This document shows, piece by piece, positions 1,621 through 62,057 of a DNA stretch of 64,000 bases. Below the pieces are notes generated by a model. It saw nothing but the letters and a program-made list of their open reading frames with translations. It was not told where the DNA came from and searched no databases. Numbering within the stretch: position 1 is the first letter of the stretch; each line of letters starts with the position of its first letter. Where the stretch lies: contig JAJDUF010000004.1 of the NCBI GenBank assembly GCA_022826725.1, forward strand, positions 186,001 through 250,000. Reading direction: 5' to 3'. The translations under genes and the position numbers were made by a program. Source of the DNA: Chloroflexota bacterium (lineage in GTDB: Bacteria; Chloroflexota; UBA11872; UBA12225; JAJDUF01).

Positions 1621-1676
1621 CGCCGTTTGCCTCCTCAAACTCAGTGCGTTCCTAGGATATGTCGTGCCGGCCCTAT

Positions 1677-1741
1677 CTCGTCATTCCAGCTTTCGCCGGA
1701 ATCCACGTCCCCCGTCGGGACGGGGGGACCATAGGGGGGCC
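1677..1741. repeat. Dispersed intergenic palindromic repeat (families C and B)
   Basis: gtcattccagctttcgccggaatccac + gtcccccgtcgggacggggggaccataggggggcc. Confidence 0.7.
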
Positions 1742-1757
1742 ACCACCGACCACTCTC

Positions 1758-2648
1758 CTAGTTCGGCAAAATGCCGTTCTCCCCCAAGACCTGGCGTAGC
1801 TGCGCCATCGCGTCGTCGGAGAGCGGCTCGAACGGCGGATGTACCCATCGCTTGCAGATGCCCAGTAGCTCCAGTACCGCCTTCTCTTCGGCCGAGGTCT
1901 CCGTGTTGCGTCGCGGCGGGAACTGCTTGATGATCCTGATGAGCGCAAAGGCCTTCTCCCGCGCCTCCGCGATCTGCCCCTCCTGCCAAAGCGTGTGGAC
2001 CTCGCTGTGCTGCTTGGGGAAGCTGGAGGCTGTGCTCATCGTGCAGCACTGCACACCCAGCGCCAGGTACGCCAGGTGATTGCCGCCCCCGGCGCCGAGC
2101 ACCTGGAACGATTCGCTATTCAGCATCGCGATGCCGGTCATCTGGGTGAGGTCGTAGCCGCCGATCTTCATGCCCGCGATATTCGGATGCTGCGACAGTT
2201 CCGTGACGGCCTCTACCGTCGGCTCCAGCGCCCGCGCCGGGTTGCTGTAGAGCCATAGCGGCAGCGGCGACCGGTCCGCCATCGCCGACCAGTAGTCCAC
2301 GCTCATGCTCGTGCTCATCTTCCGGTCGGTCGGCAGCAGGTGGTAGCCCTGGATGGGTAGGTGCGCCGTCTCGTCGAAGAACCGGTACACCTCGGACATC
2401 ACCGGGTCGCTGCATCCTACGATCAGGGTGGTGCGCCCCTGCATGTGCTCGGCGATGATCTTGGTGGCCTCGACCCGGTGCGCGTGGGGCATCGTGAAGT
2501 TCTCGCTACCCGAACCGAGCACCCATAGACCGGCGAGCGGATTCTCGAAAAGATAGTCCAGCAGCCGCGCGTAGCCCTCTCGATCCGGGCTGCCGTCCTC
2601 GTGCATCGGGCTTACCAACACCGGCATCACACCATTCAACATAGTCAC
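1758..2648 (-). CDS. Dihydrodipicolinate synthase (DapA)/N-acetylneuraminate lyase family protein
   Basis: MLNGVMPVLVSPMHEDGSPDREGYARLLDYL start and TIM-barrel aldolase-like pattern. Confidence 0.85.
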   Translation of the reverse strand: MTMLNGVMPVLVSPMHEDGSPDREGYARLLDYLFENPLAGLWVLGSGSENFTMPHAHRVEATKIIAEHMQGRTTLIVGCSDPVMSEVYRFFDETAHLPIQGYHLLPTDRKMSTSMSVDYWSAMADRSPLPLWLYSNPARALEPTVEAVTELSQHPNIAGMKIGGYDLTQMTGIAMLNSESFQVLGAGGGNHLAYLALGVQCCTMSTASSFPKQHSEVHTLWQEGQIAEAREKAFALIRIIKQFPPRRNTETSAEEKAVLELLGICKRWVHPPFEPLSDDAMAQLRQVLGENGILPN

Positions 2649-2749
2649 GTCGTACTGCTCCTTTCTGTCTAGGGCCTACTGCGCCTCCACCGCACTCCCC
2701 CTCTCCACATGGTGGAGAGGGGGCCGGGGGCAGGCAGGAAACCACGGGG

Positions 2750-4252: not shown

Positions 4253-4299
4253 CTACTTTCCTCTTCCTACGTGATGGTGTGTAGCCGAGGCGTCGTGAC

Positions 4300-4340
4300 G
4301 CCTCGCCCCCCCGCCGCAGCGGGGGGGCCATAGGGGGCCA
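4300..4340. repeat. Dispersed intergenic palindromic repeat (family B)
   Basis: gcccccccgccgcagcgggggggccatagggggcc. Confidence 0.7.
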
Positions 4341-4473
4341 GTGCTGATCGCCACGCAAAACCGTATGATGATACGCTTAACCCGCTCGCGCAAGCCACAA
4401 CTGCCGACAGAGACTGGACCCAAACGCAGCACGCCGCGCCAGCGCAGCAGTCCGACGCCCAACAGGAGGAGCT

Positions 4474-5448
4474 ATGGTTCGGATGGCCCTGATCGGTTGC
4501 GGTGCGAACGCCGCGCCCTACCTGGCGGCCGCGCAGCAACTCCCGGAGACAGCGATTACGGCCGTCGCCGACGCGGACCCCGCCCAGGTTGAACGCGCCG
4601 CCCGTACCGCCGGCGCCGCAACCCGCGCCGGCACCCTCGACGAACTGCTTGACGGCGCCGCCGAGGCGTTCGACGCGGTCATTATCACCACACCGGCCGC
4701 GACCCACGCCGCTCTCGTGAATCGCGCGGCGCAGGCTGGCAAGCACGCCCTGGTCGAGTCACCACTTGCCCCTACGGCCGCCGAGGCGCAGCAGATTGCC
4801 GCCGGCCGCGCGGCCGGGGTCCGGCTGATGCTGGCACACCCGGCCCGCTTTCAGGCCGATCACCGCGCCGTCAAGGAAAGCCTCGACGACGGCGAGCTAG
4901 GCCGGCCGGGGCTGCTCCGCATCCACCAGTGGTTCTCCGCTACCGACGGCAGCGAGCGGTCGGCCCACGCCGGCCTCGCGGCGCTCGACCTGGCGCTGTG
5001 GATGTTCGATGGCCTGCCGACTCACGTCTACGCCGTCGCACGACCCACTCGAACGACCGACCTCGCCGCTGCGGAGTACGCGCAAGTCCACCTCGGCTTT
5101 GCCGACGGCGGTATGGCGCTCATTGACCTGGCCCACACGCTGCCGACCGGCGATGGCTACGACTCGCTGACGCTGATCGGCTCGCTTGGCGCCGCCTACG
5201 CCGACACGCACCACAACATGCAGCTGCTGTACGGCGGCGGCCACGCCCAAGCGGTGCGGACGGAGCCGGACGAGTCGGTCATCGCGCTGGTGCTGGCGGA
5301 GTTCGCCGCGGCCATCGCAGAGGAGCGCGAGCCGGCAGTAGGCGGCGCAGACGGACACGCTGCGCTGCTGGTCGCCGCCGCCGTGGAATCGTCGTTGGCC
5401 GCGGCGACGGCCATGACGCTGACAGAGGGGTGCTATGAGCGCGCCTGA
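4474..5448 (+). CDS. Gfo/Idh/MocA family oxidoreductase
   Basis: VRMALIGCGANAAPYLAAAQ and ESPLAPTAAEAQQIA motifs; GGAGGAG RBS just upstream. Confidence 0.85.
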   Translation: MVRMALIGCGANAAPYLAAAQQLPETAITAVADADPAQVERAARTAGAATRAGTLDELLDGAAEAFDAVIITTPAATHAALVNRAAQAGKHALVESPLAPTAAEAQQIAAGRAAGVRLMLAHPARFQADHRAVKESLDDGELGRPGLLRIHQWFSATDGSERSAHAGLAALDLALWMFDGLPTHVYAVARPTRTTDLAAAEYAQVHLGFADGGMALIDLAHTLPTGDGYDSLTLIGSLGAAYADTHHNMQLLYGGGHAQAVRTEPDESVIALVLAEFAAAIAEEREPAVGGADGHAALLVAAAVESSLAAATAMTLTEGCYERA

Positions 5449-6511
5449 GCCGCTGCGCGTCCTCGTCATGGGGGCAGTGAAGCACGACTATATCCTGCAC
5501 GGCATGGCAGCGCATCCTCGCTATGAGTTGCTTGCCGTCACCGACGATGAAGCCGCGCCCGATTGGGCACACGCACGCAATGCGGCCACCGCCGCTGCCC
5601 TCGGCCTCTCGTATCTCCCTGGCGTATCGGCCGCGCTGGACCGCTTCCAACCGCAGGTCGCGTGCGTCACCCCGGAAGTGCCTCGCCACGCCGCCCTCAC
5701 CGTGCAGGCGGCCGAGGCTGGCCTGCACATCGTCCAGGACAAGCCGCTGGCGCTCGCGCTCGCCGACTGCGACCGGATTGTCGCAGCGGTCGAGCGCGCT
5801 GGCGTGGGGTTCCTGATGTGGAGCCGGAATACCTTTCCCGCCATCCGCCAGGCGAAGGCCATGCTCGCCACCGGCAACATCGGTCAGCCGTCTGCCATTC
5901 ACGTGGACTTCTATTTCGCCAAGGACGCCGGCGCCCTGCTCGGCTCCGGCGAGCCGGAGGAGATCGAGGTCAGTTGGGACGGCCTCGGAGAATTGACTCT
6001 CGAAGGCATTTACCCACTGGCCTACCTCCACGAGTTGCTCGGCGTCCCCGTCCGGCGCGTCTTTGCCCGCACCACCGCGCACTTCTTCCAGCGACACGCG
6101 GACCGCGGCGTGGAGGACTTAGGCTCGGTGACGCTGGAGATGGACAACGGGATGGTCGGCTCGCTGTGCATCGGACGCATCGGTGAGCCGAGCCATCCCA
6201 ATATTGGCGAGCTGCGGCTGCACATTCTGGGCACGAAAGGCGCGTTCGTCGTCGCCGAGCCGCGGCCGGAGGTATCGGTATACGCGCGCGGCCTCAAGCC
6301 GGGCGACTATCGCCAGCGGCGCGTGGGCTTGGACTACGAGCGGCGGCTCCTCGACAACTTTGCCGCGGCCGTTGACACCGGCGCGGACACAATGCTCACG
6401 GCCCGCGACAGCCGGGCCATCGCCGCCACCGTTCTCGCCGCCATCGAGTCCGGGCAGACCGGCCGCCCCGTCGAAGTACCGTCGTTAGGGGCATCTTGGG
6501 GGCGTGATTAA
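5435..6511 (+). CDS. Gfo/Idh/MocA family oxidoreductase
   Basis: LHIVQDKPLALALADCDRIV and family layout; overlaps the preceding gene by 14 bp. Confidence 0.85.
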   Translation: MSAPEPLRVLVMGAVKHDYILHGMAAHPRYELLAVTDDEAAPDWAHARNAATAAALGLSYLPGVSAALDRFQPQVACVTPEVPRHAALTVQAAEAGLHIVQDKPLALALADCDRIVAAVERAGVGFLMWSRNTFPAIRQAKAMLATGNIGQPSAIHVDFYFAKDAGALLGSGEPEEIEVSWDGLGELTLEGIYPLAYLHELLGVPVRRVFARTTAHFFQRHADRGVEDLGSVTLEMDNGMVGSLCIGRIGEPSHPNIGELRLHILGTKGAFVVAEPRPEVSVYARGLKPGDYRQRRVGLDYERRLLDNFAAAVDTGADTMLTARDSRAIAATVLAAIESGQTGRPVEVPSLGASWGRD

Positions 6512-6553
6512 TCGCGCCCAGGACCGCACGACAAGCATTTTGAGGAGGGCCAC

Positions 6554-8899
6554 ATGCCAGCACGGACCGTATTCCGCTGCACGGACGGCTACGCTTGCGA
6601 CCTCGCGGCGACGCCGGACGGCTGGGTCCTGGCAGCGGTAGGGCTGCCCGCCGTAGACGATCGGTTCGTCCGCAACATGGACCGCAGCCGGGAATGGGAG
6701 CACATTCGCGCTAGGTTGCACCCGGGCCGCAGCTATGCCGAGTGGGGTGCGGCCGTAGCGGGTACCGCGGCCACGTTGCAGCTGATTGTGCAGCGCGACG
6801 GCCGGACCACGACCGTAGCCACCGAGACGGCCGAGCAGTTCTCCGGTGCCGCAGTGGTCGGCGGCACCGCCCCGGTCTACCTCTGGACCGCCTATGACGG
6901 CGAGCAGTGGAGCGTCACCCTCCGACGGGGCGGCGAGCAACGAGTGCTCTATCGCGGCGCGGCCGTCACCCTCGGCCCGGCCCTCGTGCGCGACGAGTCC
7001 GGTGCCATCTGGTACGCCTGGACCAGCCGTGCCGGGACGACCGACACCGTCCACCTCACGAGCGAAGGATCATCCGACACCATCACCTTACCGGGGCGTT
7101 TGCCGAGCCTCACGCCGGTAGACGGCGGCGTCGCAATCTGTTTCGAGCGTCCCGACGGTGACGCCATCCACGTTTACGGCGCAATCTGCACCGACGGCGC
7201 GCTCTGCGATTCGGTCCGGCTATCGTCACGGCAGCCACTCAACTTCCAGCCGCGCTGCACGACCGCTGCGGACGGCCGCGTGGTGGTGGCCTGGGAAACC
7301 TCGCCGGCCTGGGGCTTCGACACGCGGGTCGAGCAGTTTCGCGAGATCGAGCTAAAGCAACTCGACCCGGCGAGTGGACAGGTTAGCGCCGGGCCGGGGG
7401 CGGATGACGGCATCCTCCCCATCCCTCCCCACGCCTACGACCGGCGCAAGGGACGTGCTGTTGGACGCGGCATGTTTCTCAATATGAACCCGTCGAACAT
7501 CTACCTCCTTCGCTCCGGCGACGACCTGCTCTGCACCTTCCGCATGTTCGCTCCGCTGCAGGAGGTACATTCGGGGGCAAAAGCACTGGGCACAAGAGAC
7601 GCTTGGGACTTGTGCGTCATGCGCTGCCACGACGATGTGTGGTCCGATCCGCAGCGCGTCACCGACGCTGCCGGCTTCTCCCACCATCCCTACGGCGCGG
7701 CTGTGTCGGGCGGCCACTTATTGGCCGCCGTCCATTGCCTCGAGCACACCAAGTTCCCGCCGCGCGACCATCGCATCGAGGTGCTCCAAGCCGCCGGCGC
7801 GTTGCCACCAATGCATGATCGACACCCGACCTTCGCTCCCGTGCCGATCCAGCCCACCACGCCGATCACCCATACGCCCGCCTTGCCGGGTGCGCCCGAC
7901 GGCCTCCGCCTCGTGTTTGGCGACCTCCACAACCACACCAACTACTCGTCCTGCTACCCGGCGCTTGATGGCATCCCCGACGACAACTTCCGCTGGCAGA
8001 AAGACATCCTCGGCCACGAAGTGCTCTGTATCACCGACCACATGCGCCTGTCGGACGCCGACTACCGGCAGCGCCTCGACGCGCTGGAGCGCGAGCACAC
8101 CGCCGAGCGCGTGCCGCTCTACAGCCTGGAGTGGGCACGGCCGCCGTGGCATCACTCCAACTTCTTCACCTACGACAAGCAGGTGATGAAGCGGCTCCGG
8201 CAGATCGTCCTCGCCTCCCTGGACTACAGCGAGATTTGCGAGACCGTCGCGACCGAGCTACCGCCCAATACGGTCGCAGCCATCCGCCACTGGCACGGCG
8301 ATAGGCACACCTTCTGCTACGACCAGCGCGTGGAGTGGGGCATGGAGGTGCTGCACGGCCGCGGCGATGAAATGGCTACGGAGCCGGATATGGCCGGTCA
8401 CACCTCAACCTTTCCCTTCCCGGCCAACTTCATCGAGACGGAGGGCGCCAAGCTCGCCCTCATCGGCGGCTCGGACCACCACATGTCGCTGCTGGGGTCC
8501 TGCGTCACCGGCTTCTGGGTCTCCGAGCTGACCGGCGAGGCCGTGTTCGATGCCCTACGGAACCGGCGGACCGTTGCCTGCGCCAACGGCAAGATCGCGC
8601 TATGGCTGCACAGCGACGGCGTAGCGATGGGCCAGGAAGGCACGGTGCAAGCTCCCTGCACGCTCACCGTCTCCGCGGCCGCGCCGCTGCCCATCGAGCG
8701 CCTGTCGCTCTGGCGCGACGGGCAGTGGGTCCAAGAGGTGCGCGGCTTGGAGCAGCAGGTTCGGCATACCTTTACCGACGCAGACGCGGGACCCGGCGAC
8801 CACTACTACATCGTGCGCGCCCAAACGGAGCAACCGGCAAGCTATCCCAAAGGCCCGATCATCGGCTACACGGCCCCCATCTGGCTCTCGGTGCATTAG
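6554..8899 (+). CDS. Large protein with sialidase-like N-terminal half and C-terminal PHP/DUF3604-like domain
   Basis: LVFGDLHNHTNYSSCYP...HEVLCITDHMRLSD metal-binding motifs; RBS GAGGAGGGCC upstream. Confidence 0.75.
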   Translation: MPARTVFRCTDGYACDLAATPDGWVLAAVGLPAVDDRFVRNMDRSREWEHIRARLHPGRSYAEWGAAVAGTAATLQLIVQRDGRTTTVATETAEQFSGAAVVGGTAPVYLWTAYDGEQWSVTLRRGGEQRVLYRGAAVTLGPALVRDESGAIWYAWTSRAGTTDTVHLTSEGSSDTITLPGRLPSLTPVDGGVAICFERPDGDAIHVYGAICTDGALCDSVRLSSRQPLNFQPRCTTAADGRVVVAWETSPAWGFDTRVEQFREIELKQLDPASGQVSAGPGADDGILPIPPHAYDRRKGRAVGRGMFLNMNPSNIYLLRSGDDLLCTFRMFAPLQEVHSGAKALGTRDAWDLCVMRCHDDVWSDPQRVTDAAGFSHHPYGAAVSGGHLLAAVHCLEHTKFPPRDHRIEVLQAAGALPPMHDRHPTFAPVPIQPTTPITHTPALPGAPDGLRLVFGDLHNHTNYSSCYPALDGIPDDNFRWQKDILGHEVLCITDHMRLSDADYRQRLDALEREHTAERVPLYSLEWARPPWHHSNFFTYDKQVMKRLRQIVLASLDYSEICETVATELPPNTVAAIRHWHGDRHTFCYDQRVEWGMEVLHGRGDEMATEPDMAGHTSTFPFPANFIETEGAKLALIGGSDHHMSLLGSCVTGFWVSELTGEAVFDALRNRRTVACANGKIALWLHSDGVAMGQEGTVQAPCTLTVSAAAPLPIERLSLWRDGQWVQEVRGLEQQVRHTFTDADAGPGDHYYIVRAQTEQPASYPKGPIIGYTAPIWLSVH

Positions 8900-13673: not shown

Positions 13674-13919
13674 CAATCCCGACACCTCATCATCCCCACC
13701 CCATCCTACCACGCCACCCCCACCTAACTTCACACCCGGCCCCTGCTCTCTATCCCGCCCCTTTTATCTATCAGAACAACCAGCGCAGACAGAAATATGG
13801 CTCTCGGCGAAATCGCAACAGAGTCTCCTCACGCCGTTACCGCGCCGCGTGATATACTTACTGGTCGCAAGGCTCGTGCCAGGCGAAATGTGTTCCAGGG
13901 AGGCGGAGATGTCAACAGC

Positions 13920-16211
13920 ATGATAGACAAGATAAATCTGCTCAAGAACGTTGGAAAATTCGCATCAGTCAGTAGCGGTAACTCCCTCCCGCTTGAGCGG
14001 CTAACGTTAATCTACGCCGAGAACGGCAGGGGCAAAACTACTCTTGCTGCTATCCTGCGTTCGCTCGCTACGGGCGAGCCAACCCCCATCATAGAACGGA
14101 GGCGGTTTGGGGCACAGACTCCTCCACATGTTGTAATTCAACTCAGTAACGCCCGCAATCTGGTATTCCAGGCTGGTAAGTGGAACGCTCAGTTACCAGA
14201 CTTAGTTATATTCGATGATACGTTCGTAGACCGGAATGTCTGCTCTGGCCTAGCCGTAGACGTATCCCATAGGAAAAACCTGCACGAACTGGTGCTCGGT
14301 ATTCGTGGGGTTGAATTGAGCCAGAGACTTGGACTTCTCGTGGAGCGCATCCAAGAGCATAATAAATCCCTGAGATATAAGGGTGGTCTAATACCAGCCA
14401 CCGCGCGAGGCGGTTTAACCGTGGACAGCTTATGCGCCCTCCCCAATCGACCGCATATGGACGCTGAGATTCAAGAGAAAGAACGCATGCTTGCAGCGAT
14501 ACAAGAACAAGCAGCTGTCTTAACGAAGCCTCATTTCGATGGGATCAGTCTCCCCACTTTCGACGTTGCGACTATAGCAGGTATCCTCCAGAAGGGTTTG
14601 CCCGACCTTGATGCTGAGGCTGCCAACCGTGTCAGCAGGCACATAGCCGAATTAGGCAGGGGCGGGGAGAAATGGATTAGCGACGGAGTTGAGCTTCTGC
14701 CGCCGCCAGGCTCTGACGGCACTTGCCCCTTTTGTGCTCAGAATCTTGGTGGCTCTTCATTAATAACCCACTATCGCGCATACTTCAGTCAAGCCTATGA
14801 AAACTTGAAACGCAGGATCACTCGTCTTCTCTCTGAAGTCACTGCTATATGCGACGGCAGCACCCAAGCCAACTTCGAGCGTTCGGTAAGGGTCAGCGTT
14901 GAGCGGCGTTACTTTTGGTCCAAGTTCTGTGACATCTCTGAAATCGCTATTGATACGGCTTCTATAGTCTCCGACTGGATTGCTGCTGGACAAGCCATCA
15001 CAAACCTTCTCAACGCTAAACAAGCCGCTCCGTTGGAGCAAATTTTGCTTGATCGCAAAACTCGTAATGCTCTCGAAGTCTATGCAATGCATCGTAGGAG
15101 GGTATCTCTTATCAATGAAGAGATCATCGCTTCCAACCAGAAAATCCACCAAGTCAAGGAAAAAGTGAAAGCAGGTAATCTGGAGGTTATAGAGAATGAA
15201 CTCTCTTATCTGCGTGCTACAGAATCGCGTTTCTCGCCAGATATCGCGCCGCTTTGCGAAGGCTACCTAGCGGAGAAAAGTGCGAAGGCTGCCACTGAAG
15301 ATGAGCGTGACCAGGTAAAGATAGAATTAAGAAAGTACAGAAGAAGGGTATTTCCAAAATACCGGGACGGAGTCAACAAATACCTAGAGAAATTCAATAC
15401 CGGCTTTCGACTAGAAACTTTGACTTCCAGAGATAGCAGCGGTGGCCCCACCGGAAATTATGACCTGGAAATCAATAATGCACTCGTCCGTGTTGCGGGC
15501 GGCAGACCGCGTCCAGGAAAGCCCTCCTTTAGCAATACGTTGAGTGCTGGAGACCGCAGCACGATAGCTCTTGCTTTCTTCCTTGAGTCTCTCGATCAGC
15601 ATTATAGTATCGGTGATACGATTGTCGTGATTGATGACCCAATCTCAAGCCTGGATGAGCATCGTTCCTGGGCTACAGAGCGTGAAGTTCGGCGGCTCGT
15701 TGATAGCGCCGGGCAGGTAATCGTGCTCTCCCACAATAAGCAGTTCCTATGTCGTATGTGGGAAGCAGTTGACCGCGAGTCACGCGTAGCGTTGGAGATC
15801 GTTAGGGATAGTAACGGTTGAAGTCTGTGCAAGTGGAATGTGAATGATGATTTGATCACAGAGCATGATAGGCGTGATAAGCTCTTAAGAGACTATGTTT
15901 CCAGCGGCCTGCAGAATAAGAGGGAAGTGGCTCAGTCCATGCGACCTCACTTAGAGGGATTCCTGCGTGTTGCTTATCCAGAGCACTTCCCACCAGGAAC
16001 CCTGCTTGGAGCATTCCTCACGAAGTGTGAGCAACATCTCAACCAGAGGGATAAGATCCTTGAGAATCACAGAGTCCAGGATCTTGAAGAGATCAAGGAA
16101 TACGCTAACAGATTTCACCACGATACGAACCACGCATGGGAGAGTGAGGAGATCAACGACGGTGAACTCTTGGGATTTGTGAAACGCACCTTGCAATTTA
16201 CCAAACCGTGA
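13920..16211 (+). pseudogene. AAA_13/RloC-like AAA family ATPase, split by one in-frame TGA at 15819-15821 (intact N-terminal ORF to 15821; C-terminal part 15840..16211)
   Basis: Walker A ENGRGKTTLA, CPFC zinc-hook-like motif, ABC signature LSAGDRSTIALAFFLESLD and Walker B VVIDDPISSLD; the segment after the TGA is in the same frame and resembles the C-terminal tail I associate with this family (EGFLRVAYPEHFPPGTLLG...YANRFHHDTN). Confidence 0.75.
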
Positions 16212-17286: not shown

Positions 17287-18057
17287 CTAACCACCGATCG
17301 GCAGGCGCGTATAGTGCGCGTGGTAGTCGGGGGGCTGGTCCATCATCGGGCAATCGGCGTGCTTGTAGCAGAGCGTTAGCGCCCGGCGCCGGTGCGGCGT
17401 GGGGTTGGGGCCGGAGCGGTGCAGCACATAGTTGTTCAGCAGGTAGGCTTCGCCCGGCTTGGCCGGGAGCGGGACTTCCTGCCCCACGCGCTTGTCCGCC
17501 TCCGCCTCCAGTTGACTACCGCCGTCTTGGACGCGATGCTGCAGCAAGCCGAGCTCTTGCGTGCCGGGCAGAATCTCCAGCGCGCCATTCTCCACCTGCG
17601 CCTCGTCCATCGCCGTCCAGATGGTCACGAACTGACCCGGCTCGGCGGGGTGTCCGGGGCCGGCATCCTGATGCCACTTCAGCGGCGAGCCGTCAAAGGC
17701 CGGTTTGAGTAAGGCAAACGCCCGCGAGATCGTCACCTCCGGCCCGAGCAACTGCTCGAGCAGCGACAGAAACGTCGGGTGGCAGAAATACTCCAGGAAC
17801 ACCGGGTCCCGATCGAGCTTGGTGAGCTTGCGGTAGTGCGGCGACGGCCCGATGTAGTCGTACCCCGCGGCCGCGCCCAGCTTCTCCCGCAGCGCCGGCT
17901 CGATCTGGTACTGGATTTGCTCGCTGTACTTCGATCCCAGCGTCAGATCGTCCAAGTGCTGCCGTAGCGCTGCCACTTGCTCATCCGACGCCACTTGGCC
18001 CAACGGCAGGTACCCATCCGCCTCGAACCGCTGCACCTGCGCTTCCGTCAACATCAC
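17287..18057 (-). CDS. Phytanoyl-CoA dioxygenase (PhyH) family protein
   Basis: KWHQDAGPGHP iron-binding motif, ENGALEILPGTQELG, LLNNYVLHRSGPNPTPHRRRALTLCY. Confidence 0.9.
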   Translation of the reverse strand: MMLTEAQVQRFEADGYLPLGQVASDEQVAALRQHLDDLTLGSKYSEQIQYQIEPALREKLGAAAGYDYIGPSPHYRKLTKLDRDPVFLEYFCHPTFLSLLEQLLGPEVTISRAFALLKPAFDGSPLKWHQDAGPGHPAEPGQFVTIWTAMDEAQVENGALEILPGTQELGLLQHRVQDGGSQLEAEADKRVGQEVPLPAKPGEAYLLNNYVLHRSGPNPTPHRRRALTLCYKHADCPMMDQPPDYHAHYTRLPIGG

Positions 18058-18151
18058 ACCCTCCCGTCATATCCCACGACCGGGCTGGGAATCACCCACT
18101 CGCCGCTGTTGTGTCCGCCCGGTAGGGACACGGCAGCATCTCTCCGTGGAG

Positions 18152-18604
18152 CTAGCCCGAGACTCCCCGCAGTGGCGCGGCCTCCTGCACTCCGACCACC
18201 AGCTCGCGGCCCAAGACACGGAGCGCGCTATTGATCCGGCTGGTGTCGGTGCCGTGCCGGGGATCGAGCAGGCGACCCACCGCTTGCTCGTCTGTACCAA
18301 GCTGTTGGGCGAATGCAACGCGCGTCAGACCACGCTCACGGAAAACCAGGGCCAGGGCGGCCTTCGCTGCCATGTCAGGAGGCACCACGACGTAGTGCTC
18401 ACCGGCTTGCCGCGCGCTCGGGACCGGGATCGGCTCCCCATCGTCAATCCGTCCCGCAATCGCTTCTTCCAGCGCGTCCTGGGCTTCGGCGAGCGCTTCC
18501 GCCTCATCCACGCCGGAAGTAAGGCACTCCGGCAAGTCGCGGAACGAGACGACGATCTCGTCCTCCCCAGTGCGTTGCAAGAGCGCCGGATAGAGAAACC
18601 GCAT
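18152..18604 (-). CDS. hicB: HicB-like type II antitoxin with C-terminal HTH
   Basis: VVSFRDLPECLTSGVDEAEALAEAQDALEEAI HicB fold pattern; immediately downstream of a HicA-like gene. Confidence 0.88.
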   Translation of the reverse strand: MRFLYPALLQRTGEDEIVVSFRDLPECLTSGVDEAEALAEAQDALEEAIAGRIDDGEPIPVPSARQAGEHYVVVPPDMAAKAALALVFRERGLTRVAFAQQLGTDEQAVGRLLDPRHGTDTSRINSALRVLGRELVVGVQEAAPLRGVSG

Positions 18605-18625
18605 AGCTTCCTCACACGAAGATCA

Positions 18626-18841
18626 TCAGCGAAAATCGGCCCGTTCCAGCCCCAGTTGACGAATCATACTTGACAGCAAGCCAGCACCGATTTCCTTGCG
18701 GCGGTCCTTTACGATAGCCTTGCGTGTCCCGTAGTACAGCGTGATGTGACTCCCCTTCCCACGCTTGGCGTCGGTACGGACAGAGACTCCGCGCTGCCGC
18801 CCCAGCTCGAACACCCTGGCGATGAACTCCCTCCCCTTCAC
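18626..18841 (-). CDS. hicA: HicA-like type II toxin
   Basis: 71 aa, KRGKGSHITLYYGTRKAIVKDRRKEIGAGLLSSMIRQLGL with catalytic-His context GSH. Confidence 0.88.
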   Translation of the reverse strand: MKGREFIARVFELGRQRGVSVRTDAKRGKGSHITLYYGTRKAIVKDRRKEIGAGLLSSMIRQLGLERADFR

Positions 18842-18954
18842 ACCTTTAGTATGGGGCAGCAGTGCCTGAACATCAAGCGTTAGGCTGACAACACACCATA
18901 TCGGCGATAGCGTGCGAAGGCTGAACAGAACACGTATGCGATTAGCGTAGCCCT

Positions 18955-19581
18955 CGGTAGTGTCTTAGTTTGAAATAACGGATTTTCGTTGCTGGGAATT
19001 ACATCGAATGTTACTCCGGCAGGCCGCCGCGCTCGTGAGCAGGAGCAGGATTCCCTACCACGATATCCGCCCGTCAGGGTTTTCGGACAGCCTCATGTAG
19101 AATGCTGGCAAGTAAGGCCCGCTCCTAGACTCCCTCCGGTCGAGGGCGAAAACGGCCTCTAACAACTTCCGCGCAAAGAGAGGTGTAGCATGCAAAGCGT
19201 TCAGGGATTCGGCGGGTTCTTCTTTCGGGCAAAGAACCCGGATAGACTCGCGAAATGGTATCAGGATCACCTTGGCATCAATCCTGCTCCGACGAACATG
19301 GAGATGGAGCCCTGGGTGACCGAGTCCGGGGTCACGGTTTTCTCGCCCTTCGATGCTCACACGGACTATTTCGCAGCGGACAAGACTTTCATGCTGAATT
19401 TCCGCGTGGCCGATTTGGACGCGATGGTCGCACAACTGAAGTCTGCGGATATCGAGGTCAGCCACGAAAGCGAGATGGCGGGCATAGGCCGCTTCGCCCG
19501 CATCCACGACCCCGAAGGAAACGCGCTCGAACTTTGGGAACCCACGTCGTGAGATTCGACATTTCAAACCAAGACACTACC
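18955..19581. mobile_element. Putative non-autonomous cassette with terminal inverted repeats carrying a VOC gene
   Basis: GGTAGTGTCTTAGTTTGAAAT at 18956-18976 is inverted as ATTTCAAACCAAGACACTACC at 19561-19581 (20/21 match); TAGCCCT directly repeated at 18948-18954 and 19582-19588. Confidence 0.55.
19190..19552 (+). CDS. VOC (glyoxalase/bleomycin resistance) family protein
   Basis: FFFRAKNPDRLAKWYQDHLGI ... RFARIHDPEGNALELWEP. Confidence 0.9.
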   Translation: MQSVQGFGGFFFRAKNPDRLAKWYQDHLGINPAPTNMEMEPWVTESGVTVFSPFDAHTDYFAADKTFMLNFRVADLDAMVAQLKSADIEVSHESEMAGIGRFARIHDPEGNALELWEPTS

Positions 19582-19584
19582 TAG

Positions 19585-19662
19585 CCCTAGCCCTGCGCTG
19601 CCAGGTAGTCGTCCAGGCTGTAGTCCGGGCTGCGTAGCTCGGCGAACATCGCTGCTTCCTGT
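19585..19662 (-). pseudogene. 3' remnant of an RraA-family gene (...EAAMFAELRSPDYSLDDYLAAQG*)
   Basis: 66/68 bp match between 19585-19652 and 23702-23769 (3' end of the intact gene). Confidence 0.75.
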
Positions 19663-19713
19663 CGCCTGATGCGTCCACCAGCTTTACGGCTCGCCGCTTC
19701 TAGTCCTCGCGTA

Positions 19714-20949
19714 TCACCGGGACATTGGCTTCTTCCAAAGACGGACTGTAAAACGACTCTCTTCCTCGATCAAATCCGGCTCGGTGCCATTGTGTTTACG
19801 CATAGCACCGATGATTCGGTTTCGCACACCCATGCCGAGGTGGTCCACATAGCCATAGTCGCGCAGGACTTCCTTCAACAACTCGTTTCTGGCGGCTCGC
19901 AATCCCTCGGTCATCTTTTCGACAGTAACACCATTGGGGAGCCGACCGGGCGAGATCACTTCAAGGCGGTCCCGATACAAAGAGACTTCGATATCGGTGC
20001 CAATCAGAGTATAATCGCGATGTGCAACCGCGTTGACTATGGATTCCCGAACCGCATCCACCGGGAGTGCCCGTTTTCGGCGTCGGCGCCCTCCTTCGAG
20101 CCATGCGACCGTACCCATGTTGCGGACGACGAAATCCACTGCCCGGTCAATGACGCCCTTTTCCACCACGCGCTTTCGCGATGATAACATCGAAACCAGC
20201 GGCCCTCTTATCAGTTCCTCGTCAATGGTTTCATAGTCCTTTTCCTCTCGCGGAAAGGCAGCCGCCGTGATTCCGGCCTGTGGCAGACGGCGATTCGGGT
20301 TTTCACCGAAAAGGAGCAAGCCTGCTACGGTTGCGGCGGTGGTCCCCGCTGCTTCGGCGAGAATGTCTATATTTACTAATGTCCGGCGCCAAGACTCATA
20401 ATCCTCCCGACCAGGCGTACCGCGTTTCAGAACGACACGAAAATAATTCGCGATTCTGTCTAAATCGAGGCTCTCGAACCCAGTGTCGAGCACGGGCCTG
20501 ATGTCATAGCGCATCAGGTGTGCAGCCTGGTATAGCCGCCCCTCCTCTTCCCGGCGAGCTTCCCGCGATGTGCTGCCTACCCGAACGAACGTCACCCAGG
20601 CACTACCACGCTTGGCCTTGTATGGCTTGTCTGGGCTGTCCGCCTGCAATCTAATGACACCGACCATCACACTATTGTCCAAGACTACTGACGACCACAC
20701 AGGAATCACGTTTGGTTGGAGATTCTCTTGTGCAATATTCATCACCCAGCGCTCTACCTCCTCGCGGCTTCGCGCCAGGCCGGGAATCCTCCCGTCGTCG
20801 TCCACCCCGAGCAGGATGTGGCCACCCTCGAAGTTGAGAAGGGCGGCCATCTCTTTGGCAAGCTGCTCCGGCCTAATGTCGTCCCGCTTGAACTCGACGC
20901 CAGAGTTCTCGCCGTTTCGGATCAGTTCTAGCAGTTCGGCCCGGTTCAT
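19714..20949 (-). CDS. ATP-binding protein, AlbA_2/Schlafen-type domain with C-terminal GHKL-like region and winged helix
   Basis: NGENSGVEFKRDDIRPEQLAKEMAALLNFEGGHILLGVDDDGRIPGL; ESIVNAVAHRDY. Confidence 0.88.
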   Translation of the reverse strand: MNRAELLELIRNGENSGVEFKRDDIRPEQLAKEMAALLNFEGGHILLGVDDDGRIPGLARSREEVERWVMNIAQENLQPNVIPVWSSVVLDNSVMVGVIRLQADSPDKPYKAKRGSAWVTFVRVGSTSREARREEEGRLYQAAHLMRYDIRPVLDTGFESLDLDRIANYFRVVLKRGTPGREDYESWRRTLVNIDILAEAAGTTAATVAGLLLFGENPNRRLPQAGITAAAFPREEKDYETIDEELIRGPLVSMLSSRKRVVEKGVIDRAVDFVVRNMGTVAWLEGGRRRRKRALPVDAVRESIVNAVAHRDYTLIGTDIEVSLYRDRLEVISPGRLPNGVTVEKMTEGLRAARNELLKEVLRDYGYVDHLGMGVRNRIIGAMRKHNGTEPDLIEEESRFTVRLWKKPMSR

Positions 20950-20958
20950 CTTAAGCTC

Positions 20959-23670
20959 TCAAAAGCCGTACTTCAGCCGCCGGGTCTCGAAGGCAGTCCT
21001 CCCCCCTTCGAGTATCTCCTCGACCAACTCCCGCACCGGCTGTTCATCAATCGAGCCCCTGTGCTCGGGTGCGATGGCTGCCTTGCCACCTTCCGCTTCG
21101 CCCGAGGCATCAAGCCCGAGAATCAACTCGGCGTCACCAAGTACCGGGATGTTGGCGTTGTGCGTCGAGAAGATGAACTGCCGTCGCCGCTTCTCTTCTC
21201 GCATTCTGGGGACCACGCCCTCGGTGATGAACCGGTTATCGAGATCGTCTTCAGGCTGGTCTACGATCAGTGGCGCATCGGACTCCAGCAGCAGAAGCAG
21301 CAGCACAGCGGTAGCCTTCTGGCCCGTCGAGAGGTCATCAAGTGCCTGCCAATACGGCTGGGCACCAGCGGCAGCCGTATTGAGCCGCATGACCATCGTT
21401 GGTGGTAACTCAAGCTCCTCGATCCGCATCAGGACCTCGGCCGGCGCCTTGCCAAGGCGCTCTGCCTGGGCTGGCGGGATCGCGTAGGTTTTCTGAACCG
21501 CCTCCGCACCTGTCCTGCAGCATTCGACGAACTGTGGCAACGAGAGGTCCGGCACCTGTGCGAGCCGGTCGATTGCTTCAGAAAGGCGTCCCCCTATCTC
21601 GTCGCGGAGAACCCGGAAGAGCGGCTCCCGGTCGCTGGCGGCGGTCACTTCAACTTGGACACGGTCTCTAAGCTTCCTGCTCACGGTCCCTGCGGCACGG
21701 TCTAGCAGCCGGAACTCCTGCGCTTTAAGGTCCTCCCACTCTGCAAGTAATGCGTGTCGCTTGTCCGCATGCTCCTTCTCCAGCTGTTCGAGTAGGCGCT
21801 GGCGCTGGCGCAGCGGGCGCAGACTCTCGATCTCGCGCCGCAGGCGGATGAATTCCGCCCCATCCACAGCCGATTTCTTAAGCTCACGCAGTATCTGCTG
21901 GTAAGTGGTTTCAACCTCGCGCTTGCGCTCACCCCAAAGGCCGCGAATCTCGCCGATCCCTTCATCAGCTCGCTTGAGGACCACCTCAAGCTCCCGCGCC
22001 ACCCGCTCCAGGTCACAACTCAGGCCCTTCAGGATGTCGTTGGCGCCCGTGAGAATTTCCTTGCCCGGCAGTTCTGCGAGTGCCCGCGGCGACAAGAACA
22101 CTCGGTCAATGGGCAACTCTTGGCGGAGCATCGCTAGACACTCGCGGAATGGCTGCACACGCTCGAGGATCGACTGGAGCAACCGCTCTTCCCGAACGAG
22201 CAGGCTCTGCTCCCGCAGCCGATCTTCAAGTCCGGCCTCCTGGAAGCTCTTGAGTGTCCCCTCGAGGGCCGGCAACGCCGACAGGCGCTCCTCGATCTGT
22301 TGAAGCTCGGAGCGAACATCGAGGCTGGACCGTCGCGCCTGTTCGAGGTCCCGTCGCACATCGGTCTTGCGTTGGGTGAGAGACACATCGTACTCGGCGA
22401 AGCGATCAAGGAGCTGGGTGAGCTTTTCGGGACTCTTGGTAAGCTCCGAGATTTCGTGCTGTCCGTACACTTCGACACCGGGAAGAACTTCTCCGGGGAG
22501 TAGATTCGAGATTTGTCCGGCCTCGTCGCGCACCACAGGCGGATTCGGGATGGTCCGCTCAATCAGGTACTCCCGCTTCGTGGGACGATGGGTGCGTGCG
22601 CGGAGCGATATCTTCGTCCCGCTCCGAAGCACTTGACGCACAATACTCTGGTGCGCCTTGAGCGCCTCTTCGCCGATAGGATCTAAATCGAGAACGTACC
22701 GCAGACTCTCGATGACGGTCGACTTTCCAGTGCCACGTCCCCCGACGAGAACATTCAGATTAGGGTTGAAGTGAATAGACACGCAATCGAGAAATCCACC
22801 TTCCCATGCCAATTCGACTAGTTCTGCATGCACTTCCGGCTCGGGGTCGCTGTTCAAGCGGATCCTTGATTCTGGATCGAGGAAAGCTTGGCGCAGACCC
22901 TCAATAGAAATCTCGGACATCTTAATCCAGCACGAAGCGCCCGGTTTCCTTAGATCGTTCGGGTCGCTGACGTCCTTCGCGTTGATAATCGCCAGTGGAC
23001 GTTCACGCCGATGTTGTACGTTCTTGTTCTGAAGGATCGGCCGCAGGTTATCGGGAGCATCGTCAACCGACCCAGGCAGGGCACAGGCAAGCAAGTTAGG
23101 CAACTGCCAAGCGTTGACGCGCAGCTGTCCCGACAGCTTATGGAGAAGACCACCGCCGGAGGTGACATGAGCAGCGATGCAAACAGCCTCCCATTCCCGG
23201 GACTTGGCCACGAATTCGATTGCGTCGTACTTCCCCGTTGGTGACTCCTGGTGTTCTTGGTAGATCCCACAATCCCCTAAAATGCGTTCCAGATCGTCGA
23301 GGTTCCTGTCCGGGCCAAAGAGACAGAGGAGATGAACCCCATCCTTCGTCACTGCCTCGAAACCGGGAAACACCTCAATTCCGGCTGCCCGGGCACACTC
23401 GATCAGGCCCGCTGCAGAGCGAACTCGGTAGTGGTCCGTCACAGCAATCGCCTCAACCCCTTGCTTGCGGCAGGCTTTGATCATCGCTGCGTTGTAATCC
23501 CTCTCGTTTGTGAACGACGATGTTTTTCCATGCGCGGCGAGGTACGCGAATGGATTCACCTGCAGCGCGCACTTGAAGAAACGTGCCCCCAATGGAAGCC
23601 TTAGAGCACCTGCGATCACGTCCCTGTCGCTCATATTTCTCTCCATAACTAGGAAGAGGCGATGCCTCAT
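20959..23670 (-). CDS. TrlF-like protein: N-terminal PHP domain fused to an SMC/AAA-like ATPase
   Basis: AIAVTDHYRVRSAAGLIECARAAGIEVFPGFE (PHP), NVLVGGRGTGKSTVIE (Walker A), LSTGQKATAVLLLLLLESDAPLIVDQPEDDLDNRFI (signature and Walker B). Confidence 0.88.
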   Translation of the reverse strand: MRHRLFLVMERNMSDRDVIAGALRLPLGARFFKCALQVNPFAYLAAHGKTSSFTNERDYNAAMIKACRKQGVEAIAVTDHYRVRSAAGLIECARAAGIEVFPGFEAVTKDGVHLLCLFGPDRNLDDLERILGDCGIYQEHQESPTGKYDAIEFVAKSREWEAVCIAAHVTSGGGLLHKLSGQLRVNAWQLPNLLACALPGSVDDAPDNLRPILQNKNVQHRRERPLAIINAKDVSDPNDLRKPGASCWIKMSEISIEGLRQAFLDPESRIRLNSDPEPEVHAELVELAWEGGFLDCVSIHFNPNLNVLVGGRGTGKSTVIESLRYVLDLDPIGEEALKAHQSIVRQVLRSGTKISLRARTHRPTKREYLIERTIPNPPVVRDEAGQISNLLPGEVLPGVEVYGQHEISELTKSPEKLTQLLDRFAEYDVSLTQRKTDVRRDLEQARRSSLDVRSELQQIEERLSALPALEGTLKSFQEAGLEDRLREQSLLVREERLLQSILERVQPFRECLAMLRQELPIDRVFLSPRALAELPGKEILTGANDILKGLSCDLERVARELEVVLKRADEGIGEIRGLWGERKREVETTYQQILRELKKSAVDGAEFIRLRREIESLRPLRQRQRLLEQLEKEHADKRHALLAEWEDLKAQEFRLLDRAAGTVSRKLRDRVQVEVTAASDREPLFRVLRDEIGGRLSEAIDRLAQVPDLSLPQFVECCRTGAEAVQKTYAIPPAQAERLGKAPAEVLMRIEELELPPTMVMRLNTAAAGAQPYWQALDDLSTGQKATAVLLLLLLESDAPLIVDQPEDDLDNRFITEGVVPRMREEKRRRQFIFSTHNANIPVLGDAELILGLDASGEAEGGKAAIAPEHRGSIDEQPVRELVEEILEGGRTAFETRRLKYGF

Positions 23671-23703
23671 TAGATCGAGTATGCCCCGTCGGCTTCAGCC
23701 ACC

Positions 23704-24393
23704 CTACCCCTGCGTTGCCAGGTAGTCGTCCAGGCTGTAGTCCGGGCTGCGTAGCTCGGCGAACATCGCCGCCTCTTTCTCCTGCACTGCCAGCGCCTGA
23801 TCGTGTACCTGATCCGCGACGGCCGGCGGAATCACCAGCGCGCCGTTCTCGTCCGCGTGGATGAAGTCGCCCGGCCGCACCGTCATGCCGTCAATCACCA
23901 CCGGGCTATTGATGTCCAGCCAGCGCAGCCGACCGTGCATCGGCGACACGCCCGCGCCCCAGCAAGGCAGCGGCACGTCGCGCACGCCGGCCAGGTCCCG
24001 GATGCTTCCGTTCGTCAAGAACCCGACCGCGCCGGCCAGCATCATCCGCGTGCCCATCCCATCACCAATCGTGACGGTATACCGCGGCCTAGGGCCGACC
24101 GATTCCATCACCGCAAAGACCGGCAGCCCCTCCGCTCCCGCGCTCCGCGCCGCCTGTTGGATCGAGCGCAGCCAGTCGTTGAACAAGCTCCCCACTTTCT
24201 CGGTCCCCGCAGTCGTGCTATCCATCCGAGCGGTCACGGCGATGCCCACCCGTGGCCCCAGCTCCGGCATCAGGGCGCGGACGTCCGGTCCCGTGTACCC
24301 GACCGTCGGGTCTTGCACCTCCAGCAGCTCTAGGCCGTTGGCCACCGTCGGCGAATCGAACTCAGCCAACCGCTTGATCTTCTCGTAATCCAT
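23704..24393 (-). CDS. RraA family (dimethylmenaquinone methyltransferase/aldolase-like) protein
   Basis: GAVGFLTNGSIRDLAGVRDVPLPCWGAGVSP..., DFIHADENGALVIP. Confidence 0.9.
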   Translation of the reverse strand: MDYEKIKRLAEFDSPTVANGLELLEVQDPTVGYTGPDVRALMPELGPRVGIAVTARMDSTTAGTEKVGSLFNDWLRSIQQAARSAGAEGLPVFAVMESVGPRPRYTVTIGDGMGTRMMLAGAVGFLTNGSIRDLAGVRDVPLPCWGAGVSPMHGRLRWLDINSPVVIDGMTVRPGDFIHADENGALVIPPAVADQVHDQALAVQEKEAAMFAELRSPDYSLDDYLATQG

Positions 24394-24539
24394 GCCGCAT
24401 GCCTCCGCGTGTGGTGTCGGTCAGCGCCAATCCTACCACCCTTCCCGAGGGCACTGCCCGTCGGCGCCATGTGTACGCCAGACTACGGCCGTGCCGCTGC
24501 CCGGCGCGTAGAATGCCCTATGAGCGGAGTGCCAAGATC

Positions 24540-25655
24540 ATGATGAATCGGCGGCGGCTGGGCAGCAGACTGCTCCGGTTGGCGCCTTTGGCCGGCCTGA
24601 CGGCGCTGACCGCCTGCCAGCTCGGCGGCGATACGGCGGCGCCGGCGGTAAGTCCCGTGGTCCCCACGCCGACGCCGCGCCCGCTCCCCATCGAGTCGGT
24701 TGACCCGGAGGAGATCATCACTCTGCTGCCCCCGGACGGCATCCCGGCCATTGACAACCCTGAGTTCATGTCCATCGAGGAGACGATCAACCGCGGCGTC
24801 ATGGACGACAGCGAACCGGTGCTCTCGTTTGGTCACCAGGGCGTCTGGCACGCCTACTCCGTATTCCAGCTCGACCACCACGAGATCGTGAACGATGTGG
24901 TCGGCGGTCTGCCTGTCGCAGCGACATGGTGACCACTCTGTTTCACGGGTATCGTGTATGCCCGCGAGGTCAACGGGCGGGTGCTGGATTTCGGCGTCTC
25001 CGGCAAGCTGTACCGCAACGTCCTAGTCATGTTCGACCGCCAGACCGGCAGCCTGTGGAGCCAACTGCTCGGCCAGGCCATCGTCGGCCCGCTCACGGGC
25101 ACGCGCCTGATCATGCTCCCCGCCACGGTCATGACTTGGGGCGCGTGGCGACGGGAGCATCCCGACGGCCTGCTGCTCAGGAAGGAAGAGCCGAGCAAGG
25201 CCACCTACGCCTCCTACTGGAACTCCGGTACGGTCGGCGTTGCCGGCGAGACGCTCGAGGACCCGCGGCTGCTGGCCAAGCAGTACGTCGTCGGCGTGCG
25301 TATCGCCGATCAGCCCAAGGCCTATCCGTATGCGCGGTTGAGCACGCAGCCGGTGGTGAACGACACGCTCGGCGGCACGCCGTTAGTTGCCGTATTCGAC
25401 GAGGTACACGGCGGGGCGGGGATTGTCTTCTCGCGCCAGGTCCAAGACCGCACCCTGACCTTCGCGCTCCAGCAGACGACGGAGACGACCGTCCTGCTCA
25501 CGGACGAGGAAACCGGCACGCTCTGGCACGGCCTCACCGGCGACGCCTTGGAGGGACCGCTGGCCGGCCAACGCCTGCGGCAGCTACCCGCGACCGATTC
25601 GTTCTGGTTCGGCTGGAAGGATCACTTCCCCAACACGGCCGTCTGGGGAGAGTGA
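24540..25655 (+). CDS. DUF3179 domain-containing putative lipoprotein; candidate selenoprotein with in-frame TGA at 24930-24932 (ATW-U-PLCFTGIVY)
   Basis: The ORF track splits this into 24399..24932 and 24954..25655, but both are in the same frame and separated by one TGA; LTAC lipobox; HEIVNDVVGGLPVAATW[TGA]PLC...FGVSGKLYRNVLVMFDRQTGSLWSQ fits the DUF3179 signature. Confidence 0.75.
24941..24969 (+). promoter_or_regulatory. SECIS-like hairpin downstream of the in-frame TGA
   Basis: CGGGTAT (24946-24952) pairs with ATGCCCG (24958-24964) including one G-U; 5-nt loop CGTGT with G at 24954; the lower stem extends via C944-G966, T943-A967, T942-G968, T941-G969 past one A-C mismatch. Confidence 0.55.
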
Positions 25656-25665
25656 GGCGCCACCA

Positions 25666-26466
25666 TCACGCCCGGCCCGCGAACTCCTGGCCCCGGATCA
25701 GCATGAAGCGGAACGCCCCCGGCGGCTGCTCCGCCTCCAACCTGATGCGATGATCCTCGTCGCGGACGCCCAAGTACTTGGTCTCGGCAGGAATGTAGTG
25801 CAGGGCGAGACCGCGCCGGCGGTGCGGCGTCTGGTTGGCGCCGGTCCGGTGCATATTGTGTCCGTGGTGGAACATGCAGTGCCCGGCCGGCAGCTCCACC
25901 GGCACCGGATCGGCCAGCTCCGGCATGGCGAGGAACGCATCCTTCTGCTCACCGGTCACCGGCCCCCACTTGTGGCTGCCGGGGATAACCGTCATACAGC
26001 CGTTCTCGACGGTCGCGTCGTCCAAGGCCACCCAAGCACTCACCGCCATTTGCGGGATCAGCCAGGGCCAGGCCGGTGAGTCCTGGTGCCAGTCGGTCAC
26101 CGTGCCATGAAAGCGCGGCTTCATCATCAGCTGGTCGTGGTACAGCTTGATGTTCGGGCCGAGCAGCTCCTCGACCACGTCCACGATCTCGGGCTTGCGC
26201 GCCATGGACTCGAAGAGCTCGTCAAAGTAGGCCAAGTGGGTCATCTTGCGGGTCCGGTCGAGCACCGGCACGTCATCGGTGTCGTTTTCGCCACGGAACT
26301 GCCGCTCCCGCTGGATATAGCGCGCCGGCATATGATCCAGCCGGCCTTCCACGATGTCCGCGCTGCGCTGCCGCAGGGCCGCCAGCTCGTCATCGGTGAG
26401 CACCCGGCCATACCGCAAGTAGCCGTGCTCGGCGAAGAACTCCTTCTGCTCGGCAGTGAGAGCCAT
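25666..26466 (-). CDS. Phytanoyl-CoA dioxygenase family protein
   Basis: TDWHQDSPAWPWL, ENGCMTVIPGSHKWG, MFHHGHNMHRTGANQTPHRRRGLALHYI. Confidence 0.9.
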   Translation of the reverse strand: MALTAEQKEFFAEHGYLRYGRVLTDDELAALRQRSADIVEGRLDHMPARYIQRERQFRGENDTDDVPVLDRTRKMTHLAYFDELFESMARKPEIVDVVEELLGPNIKLYHDQLMMKPRFHGTVTDWHQDSPAWPWLIPQMAVSAWVALDDATVENGCMTVIPGSHKWGPVTGEQKDAFLAMPELADPVPVELPAGHCMFHHGHNMHRTGANQTPHRRRGLALHYIPAETKYLGVRDEDHRIRLEAEQPPGAFRFMLIRGQEFAGRA

Positions 26467-26634
26467 CGGATACCTCCTTGCTGCCTACGCGATCCCCAAC
26501 CGACGGCCCGGAGTCTATGCCAGCCACCCCGGCCCGTCAAGCAGCCACGCGCCCTGTGTACTGGTCAGTAGCTAGTGGCCTCGCCGCCCGTCAGTGGGCT
26601 GGTGGGGTCTCTCCGCAGTTATAGTGAAATTAGC

Positions 26635-26680
26635 CAGTTTATGATTTTCTTGTAAACTAGGGTAAACTTGCTATAAACTG
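26635..26680 (+). promoter_or_regulatory. Putative operator/promoter region of the AAA ATPase gene
   Basis: CAGTTTAT (26635-26642) inverted as ATAAACTG (26673-26680); TAAACT at 26653, 26663 and 26674, spaced 10 and 11 bp; AT-rich island ending 5 bp before the ATG. Confidence 0.5.
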
Positions 26681-26685
26681 ATCGC

Positions 26686-27882
26686 ATGGACCCCATCCGC
26701 AACCCCTATGCGCCTGGAGCGGGCACCCAGCCGCCGGAGCTGGCCGGCCGCGACGAGGTCCGTGAGACCGCGCGAATTACCTTGGCGCGGACCAAGATTG
26801 GGCGCCCGAGCAAGAGCATGCTCATGGTTGGCTTGCGGGGCGTGGGCAAAACCGTCCTCCTGGACCGCATTCGGGAGGATGCCGAGGCGAACGGCATCTA
26901 CACATTGCGGATCGAAGCGCCCGAAAATCGTTCGCTGCCCTCCCTTTTGGCACCGCAGTTGCATCTGGCCTTGTTAAGGCTCTCGAATAGATGGAATGCA
27001 AAACGACTGGCTCAACGCGCTCTGCGAAGGCTGGCGGGGTTTGTCAGTGCGCTGAAGGTGAAGTACGAGGACATCGAGGTCGGTTTGGACGTCGACCCCG
27101 AACCCGGGCTGGCGGACAACGGCGACCTGGAGACCGACTTACAGGACCTGTTCGAAGCCGTTGGCGACGCCGCCCAGGCCGGCGGCAGTTGCGTGGCGCT
27201 CTTCGTTGACGAACTCCAATATGTGCAAGAGGATGAGCTTGCGGCCTTAATCACGGCATTGCACCGGACGGCTCAACGGCGCCTCCCCGTGACCATGGTC
27301 GGGGCCGGCCTCCCCCAGGTGCGCGGTCACATGGGGAAAGCGAAGACCTACGCCGAGCGGCTGTTCGAGTTCTCCGAAATCGGATCGCTGTCAACCGAAG
27401 ACGCCAAGCTGGCGATTACCAAACCCGCGCAAGACGAAGGCGTAGAGATAGAAGCGTCCGCCCTTGATGCCATCGTTGCCCAAACGCGATGCTATCCTTA
27501 CTTTCTGCAGGAGTGGGGCAAGCACGTGTGGGATGTCGCCGAACGCTCTCCCATCACGGCTTCCAGTATTGAAATCGCCTCCGGTCAGGCCGTTGCCGCC
27601 CTCGATGTGAGTTTCTTCGGGGTCAGGTTTGACCGGCTTACGCCCTTAGAGAAACGCTACCTGCGAGCGATGGCCCATCTGGGCGTGGGACCGCATCGTT
27701 CCGGTGGCATTGCCCAGGTGCTTGGCCGTCCCGTGACCTCTTTAGGCACCACCCGCAGCCAGCTCATCGATAAAGGCATGATCTGGAGTCCCAGTCACGG
27801 CGATACCGCCTTTACCGTTCCGATGTTTGACGAGTTTATGCTACGTATCATGCCCGGCGACGAGTGGCGCCGGTCCCGATAA
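26686..27882 (+). CDS. AAA family ATPase (ATP-binding protein, ORC/STAND-like) with C-terminal winged-helix-like region
   Basis: LMVGLRGVGKTVLLDRI Walker A, VALFVDELQYVQEDEL Walker B. Confidence 0.85.
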   Translation: MDPIRNPYAPGAGTQPPELAGRDEVRETARITLARTKIGRPSKSMLMVGLRGVGKTVLLDRIREDAEANGIYTLRIEAPENRSLPSLLAPQLHLALLRLSNRWNAKRLAQRALRRLAGFVSALKVKYEDIEVGLDVDPEPGLADNGDLETDLQDLFEAVGDAAQAGGSCVALFVDELQYVQEDELAALITALHRTAQRRLPVTMVGAGLPQVRGHMGKAKTYAERLFEFSEIGSLSTEDAKLAITKPAQDEGVEIEASALDAIVAQTRCYPYFLQEWGKHVWDVAERSPITASSIEIASGQAVAALDVSFFGVRFDRLTPLEKRYLRAMAHLGVGPHRSGGIAQVLGRPVTSLGTTRSQLIDKGMIWSPSHGDTAFTVPMFDEFMLRIMPGDEWRRSR

Positions 27883-27953
27883 CACGTAAAGAGCTTCTGT
27901 CCCCAGTAGTCGTACACGGCTCGCCGCTCGCCACTCACCACCACCAAGGAGCG

Positions 27954-60440: not shown

Positions 60441-60456
60441 CGAGGGGGAGACGATG

Positions 60457-62052: not shown

Positions 62053-62057
62053 GGTTT

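Follow-up and report, generated by a model that had tools for sequence, protein, structure and literature searches.

The locus described here lies in the genome of a Chloroflexota bacterium, on a 64-kb stretch of DNA that was analyzed as a whole and is referred to below as the window. An intact rraA-like gene is followed there by a gene for a TrlF-family ATPase, an AlbA_2 gene and a second, isolated copy of the rraA 3' end, all read from the minus strand, with a small VOC/glyoxalase element adjoining on the far side. The features are:

18956..19581, plus strand: element with a VOC/glyoxalase gene, bounded by ~20-bp terminal inverted repeats (GTAGTGTCTTRGTTTGAAAT) and lying, on its right, directly against the left repeat
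19585..19658, minus strand: left repeat copy, a 74-nt fragment of an rraA 3' end comprising the stop and the ~24 codons before it
19659..23701, minus strand: DNA between the repeats, apparently inserted; not present at the sister locus; G+C 58.6%, against 65-68% for most of the flanking DNA
19714..20949, minus strand: AlbA_2 gene, 411 aa, with an SLFN_AlbA_2 domain (14-131) and an HATPase_c_4/RecG-C-like domain (317-404); TrlG-like partner of TrlF
20959..23670, minus strand: TrlF-family ATPase gene, 903 aa, with a PHP-like N-terminus and an SMC/RecN-like ATPase; the start is likelier at 23634
23702..23775, minus strand: right repeat copy, ending the intact rraA-like gene and apparently reconstituting its 3' end, with private differences at 23707 and 23715
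23704..24393, minus strand: rraA-like gene (PF03737), 229 aa, intact, the putative insertion target

A repeat finder run on the window pairs 19585-19658 with 23702-23775 as a direct repeat of 74 nt, with 95% identity and a spacing of 4117. The initial annotation had described a 68-bp repeat (19585-19652 and 23702-23769) with this same spacing and had it bracket the AlbA_2 and TrlF genes (19714..23670). Both statements were borne out, as the open reading frames place the two genes between the copies. A BLAST self-comparison of the window stretches the repeat to 84 nt (92%, E = 3e-26), but homology to the repeat or to a diverged rraA beyond position ~19658 of the left copy scored no better than shuffled sequence, and the true repeat is thus ~74 nt long. 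It had also been claimed that both copies encode the RraA C-terminus. This is fully correct for the right copy, which ends the intact 229-aa reading frame, whereas the left copy is only a bare fragment of ~24 codons, reading in frame through EAAMFAELRSPDYSLDDYLAAQG to the stop. The outer edge of the repeat falls 2 bp beyond the rraA stop codon, where the VOC element next to it also sets the limit.

Differences between the copies are confined to 19590/23707 and 19598/23715, both within the first 68 nt, and to 19653 and 19656 of the left copy; the 54 nt separating the outer from the inner differing sites are the same in both. At the outer sites (19590 and 19598) the left copy has the bases of a genome of the same genus (G001, hereafter the sister genome), and at the inner sites (19653 and 19656) it is the right copy that carries the bases of the gene. 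Four positions within 19630-19638 are alike in both copies and unlike the sister genome.

The repeat sequence occurs in this genome at this locus only. A search for similar repeat pairs, covering contig C8 and half of C22 (729 kb of the 4.14-Mb genome), yielded among the candidates inspected no other unique pair made up of an intact gene end and a fragment of it. An insertion mechanism common to the whole genome was considered and, for these 729 kb, rejected, the best other candidate (C22, 309094/313383) lying near promoters and duplicating no gene end.

The two genes are the only ones between the repeats, and neither an integrase nor transfer genes accompany them. The larger product matches the TrlF family profile NF045780 with 496.8 bits (cut-off 350) over profile positions 2-944 of 944; PF13304 scores above its cut-off and PHP slightly below the Pfam cut-off. 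The Walker A motif GGRGTGKST, the LSTGQK signature and the LIVDQPEDD motif are all intact, and the best PADLOC match of the protein is the related Ppl. About 10 bp separate the TrlF gene from the AlbA_2 gene, so that the two are adjacent as in a TRL-type pair. In the Photorhabdus TRL operon (trlR-trlF-trlG), which confers a temperature restriction phenotype (PMC7554251), a TrlF-family ATPase likewise adjoins a two-domain protein of the type mistaken for RecG, TrlG having been misannotated in that way (PMC7554251). The likeness of the AlbA_2 protein to TrlG is one of domain anatomy rather than of direct sequence comparison, and, unlike the Photorhabdus operon, the segment between the repeats holds no trlR-like third gene.

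To see how the locus looks without the segment, the sister genome provides a direct comparison. Its rraA ortholog is 97% identical in amino acid sequence, and a single uninterrupted rraA occupies the syntenic place on a 42.7-kb contig, with the module missing; the initial annotation had named just such a relative as the check on its interpretation. Window positions 18084-19668 align to positions 1-1578 of the sister locus (98.2%) and 23703-25893 to positions 1497-3687 (91.3%). The two alignments overlap by a single copy of the repeat, and the left flank is joined there directly to the rraA end. The sister genome has no TrlF match and only a weak domain match to AlbA_2, and none of 39 further relatives has a close TrlF match. 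Within the phylum, TrlF matches at E<=1e-60 are found in 7 of 400 genomes, including that of the window. Codon composition also sets the two genes apart, their GC3 being 0.63 and 0.68 compared with 0.84-0.89 for rraA, both phyH genes and other neighbors. These observations support the view that the 4.1-kb segment was inserted where rraA ends, at its 3' side, and an insertion in the lineage of the window would be the simplest history. No tRNA or other RNA gene that could have served as a target is found in the 64-kb window, and a literature search returned no report of integration at rraA.

A scan of genome contigs for TrlF found 80 loci in many phyla. An AlbA_2 gene lies next to TrlF, 6-76 bp after it, at 65 of them, and several of the other 15 are interrupted by contig ends. 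Genes of the DUF1156 type adjoin the pair in many loci. On a Vibrio plasmid the pair sits in a BREX system between pglX and pglZ, and on a Citrobacter IncC plasmid it sits in a type I restriction-modification (RM) operon between hsdS and hsdR. Judging from this company, the pair is probably an antiphage module. In those loci it is embedded inside BREX, type I RM or DUF1156 systems, whereas here it stands alone behind a metabolic gene. DNA similarity among the modules ends at the ends of the reading frames and there are thus no conserved element termini. A transposon or IS element carrying the pair was rejected on this point, and no pair of inverted repeats bounds the island in the window.

Direct repeats closely bracketing the pair were sought at the other loci, using as thresholds a length of at least 60 nt, an identity of at least 75% and a distance of at most 250 bp from both module edges. 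Six of the 60 testable loci have them (the window, L090, L092, L116, L118 and L165), where 0.012 were expected from same-length displaced windows in the same loci, an imperfect control in that it matches position and not gene boundaries. The repeats are 72-178 nt long and correspond to the end of a neighboring gene (rraA, a methylase or DUF1156) in five of the six. At L116 (WOR-3) a site-specific methylase gene supplies the repeat with its 3' end, which runs up to the stop codon (178 nt, 85%). At L090 (Chloroflexi), L118 (Betaproteobacteria) and L165 (Planctomycetota) the repeat comes from a DUF1156 gene, from its 5' end. The exception, L092, is bracketed by an interspersed repeat. In five plasmid loci of the pair, no flanking repeats bracket TrlF. 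Of the bracketed loci, that of the window is the freshest and alone has a demonstrated empty site.

Several further arrangements were seen at these and other TrlF loci. Four copies of the last ~20 nt of the L116 methylase gene (TGCAGGTTGAGGACGATAT) are spread around TrlF-AlbA_2 and two small reading frames that are themselves duplicated (1964-6833), which resembles a point of repeated insertion or duplication. At L109 (1891-6637) and L118 (8226-14042), 5' ends of DUF1156 methylases recur before successive defense modules, as if each insertion of a module had duplicated the gene start; the L109 copies (116 nt, 95-97%) surround modules other than TrlF. At L149, a 10-kb segment holding the pair lies between 0.8-kb repeats that start with an apparent tRNA 3' end.

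Duplicated gene ends thus recur around what appear to be inserted defense genes, and not around TrlF alone. Because other modules, as at L109, also have duplicates of the DUF1156 5' end around them, the phenomenon may belong to the DUF1156 gene rather than to TrlF. It is the recurrence of bracketing repeats around the pair that is new here, the type of island itself being already known.

The explanation we favor, and consider moderately probable as a whole, is that this Chloroflexota lineage acquired a two-gene TrlF-AlbA_2 (TrlF-TrlG-like) antiphage module by a single crossover with a donor molecule, circular or end-joined, in which an rraA-like gene end lay beside the module. The crossover would have fallen within the 3' end of the rraA-like gene, whose last stretch would now derive from the donor; TrlF, AlbA_2 and, as a leftover, the 74-nt rraA end would follow in that order. 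The old gene end would thereby have stayed on the far side, and the intact gene would have received its tail from the incoming molecule. A single crossover fits the two copies because the left one is like the sister genome on its outer side, the right one is like the gene on its inner side, and no difference occurs in the intervening 54 nt. Among the genomes examined, none has a plain rraA-TrlF donor locus, and a circular intermediate was not seen either. As the recombinase is not encoded by the island, it would have been either RecA acting on the homology or an integrase supplied in trans. Of the two, we find homologous recombination at the common gene end slightly more likely, since elsewhere the pair is bracketed by unrelated gene ends, 5' ends among them. 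Against this explanation, a homology of 74 nt is short for RecA-type recombination, and a crossover made by an integrase is equally possible.

Two other histories were considered. The left copy could be what remains of a second rraA gene, a tandem paralog to which the island genes are unrelated, as the initial annotation had suggested as an alternative, and the fragment does read in frame to the stop. We regard this as scarcely credible: the sister genome, with its single rraA end at an empty site, has no room for a second gene and points to insertion rather than to a paralog remnant, the remaining RraA-like genes found in the genome are ~39% identical across the full domain, and the homology ends at ~19658. 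The island could instead be ancestral and have been lost from the sister genome by recombination between the repeats. Judged from one sister, loss and insertion are structurally the same, and other TrlF-AlbA_2 pairs do exist in the phylum, with AlbA_2 identities of 54-73%. As the comparison is with one same-genus genome, the choice between gain and loss rests on composition and on absence elsewhere. Both the foreign GC3 and the rarity of TrlF, which has no close match in 40 relatives and few in the phylum, favor gain, and loss is very unlikely.

If the segment is an insertion, the main competing account of how it entered is site-specific integration, in which the rraA 3' end serves as attB, with attL and attR as the two repeats; the island would then be a cis-mobilizable element (CIME) that either lost its integrase or was served by one in trans. 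Much of the anatomy agrees with this: a gene 3' end is targeted, the gene is restored, the empty site is precise, and an identical core is flanked by differing arms. The segment also has the properties of a CIME, namely att-like direct repeats at a gene end, an empty site in a relative and no integrase or transfer genes of its own, and its own phylum offers a precedent in the Dehalococcoides ssrA islands that are free of integration modules (PMC3146451). The initial annotation was therefore right to call the repeats attL/attR-like as far as anatomy goes, but a site-specific integrase as the mechanism is unproven, and its remark that no integrase is present is correct both in the island and beside it. 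With no cognate integrase next to either repeat, the segment does not qualify as an integrase-encoded genomic island. The two PF00589 proteins of the genome (contigs C6 and C21) are remote and look to be of the Xer type by length and sequence, the one large serine recombinase (a 566-aa frame) is on a different contig (C20), and the repeat is restricted to one locus. A search of 41 genomes with the repeat yielded neither a known integrase for the putative att sites nor an integrase-bearing relative at the site. Moreover, unrelated gene ends, including 5' ends, bracket the same pair elsewhere, and a single attachment site cannot explain that pattern. We consider site-specific integration possible, but clearly less probable than the favored account. 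Capture at a break, in which a long-overhang break was filled in and 74 bp were duplicated here and other lengths at other loci, would suit repeats of 72-178 nt at unrelated targets with no conserved termini. It seems improbable. Random breaks would not be expected to make the L116 repeat stop at the stop codon and the one here 2 bp past it, although the VOC element also helps to fix the latter edge, and the differences at the outer ends of the copies look like two separate sources. A bolder proposal, for which we see little likelihood, is that TrlF-AlbA_2 modules share a way of spreading that needs no integrase and can use nearly any gene boundary, the neighboring gene being kept whole and its end duplicated beyond the module; the SMC-like ATPase and PHP domain of the module itself would perhaps take part.

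The Dehalococcoides ssrA islands are among the closest known counterparts. Gene-end repeats of 20 bp form their bounds, and 15 are without an integration module (PMC3146451). They share with the island described here the phylum and a boundary made of an intact single-copy gene 3' end and a direct repeat. They differ in that their target encodes tmRNA, whereas rraA is protein-coding, in that their repeat is 20 nt rather than 74 nt long, and in that no integrase-bearing relative is known at the site studied here. Islands of the dusA family (PMC4482086) are similar in being inserted at the end of a protein-coding gene, but carry their cognate integrase beside the site, which the present island does not.

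Little is understood of the way in which small integrase-free defense modules move and come to lie inside BREX, RM and DUF1156 operons, and the present case brings together a recent insertion, its empty site and exact junctions. The same scar, a duplicated gene end, at unrelated insertions of the pair suggests a recurring integrase-free spread of defense genes. If this is true, the scar would serve as a sequence signature in systematic searches for recent insertions of such modules.

Other variable features surround the island. The VOC element has a 7-bp TAGCCCT match on each side and is found at the same place in the sister genome. Related element ends bound ~285-bp MITE-like copies at 94.68 kb of contig C8 and 286.11 kb of C22, which are 91.7% identical to each other. 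A ~2.3-kb tract (17300-19630) that starts in a phyH gene, contains part of it together with hicAB-like genes and the VOC element, and ends in the left repeat is ~98.5% identical to the sister genome, against ~91% for most other parts of the shared region. This suggests a recent exchange between species. The end of the tract in the left repeat would mean either two recombination events within the same ~30 bp or a tract and island that came from one donor resembling the sister genome.

A second variable defense slot lies nearby: an AAA_13 gene matching the candidate defense family PDC-S06 (13797-15821, E 2e-57) has a G+C content of 50% in a 66% region, and the sister genome has unrelated DNA there. 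On the other side, close to the island, an AAA_16 ATPase gene (26686-27882, within 26556-27935) is missing at the syntenic place in the sister genome. At 60443-63895, a ~1.6-kb gene is tandemly duplicated, the copies being 91% identical with a spacing of 1858.
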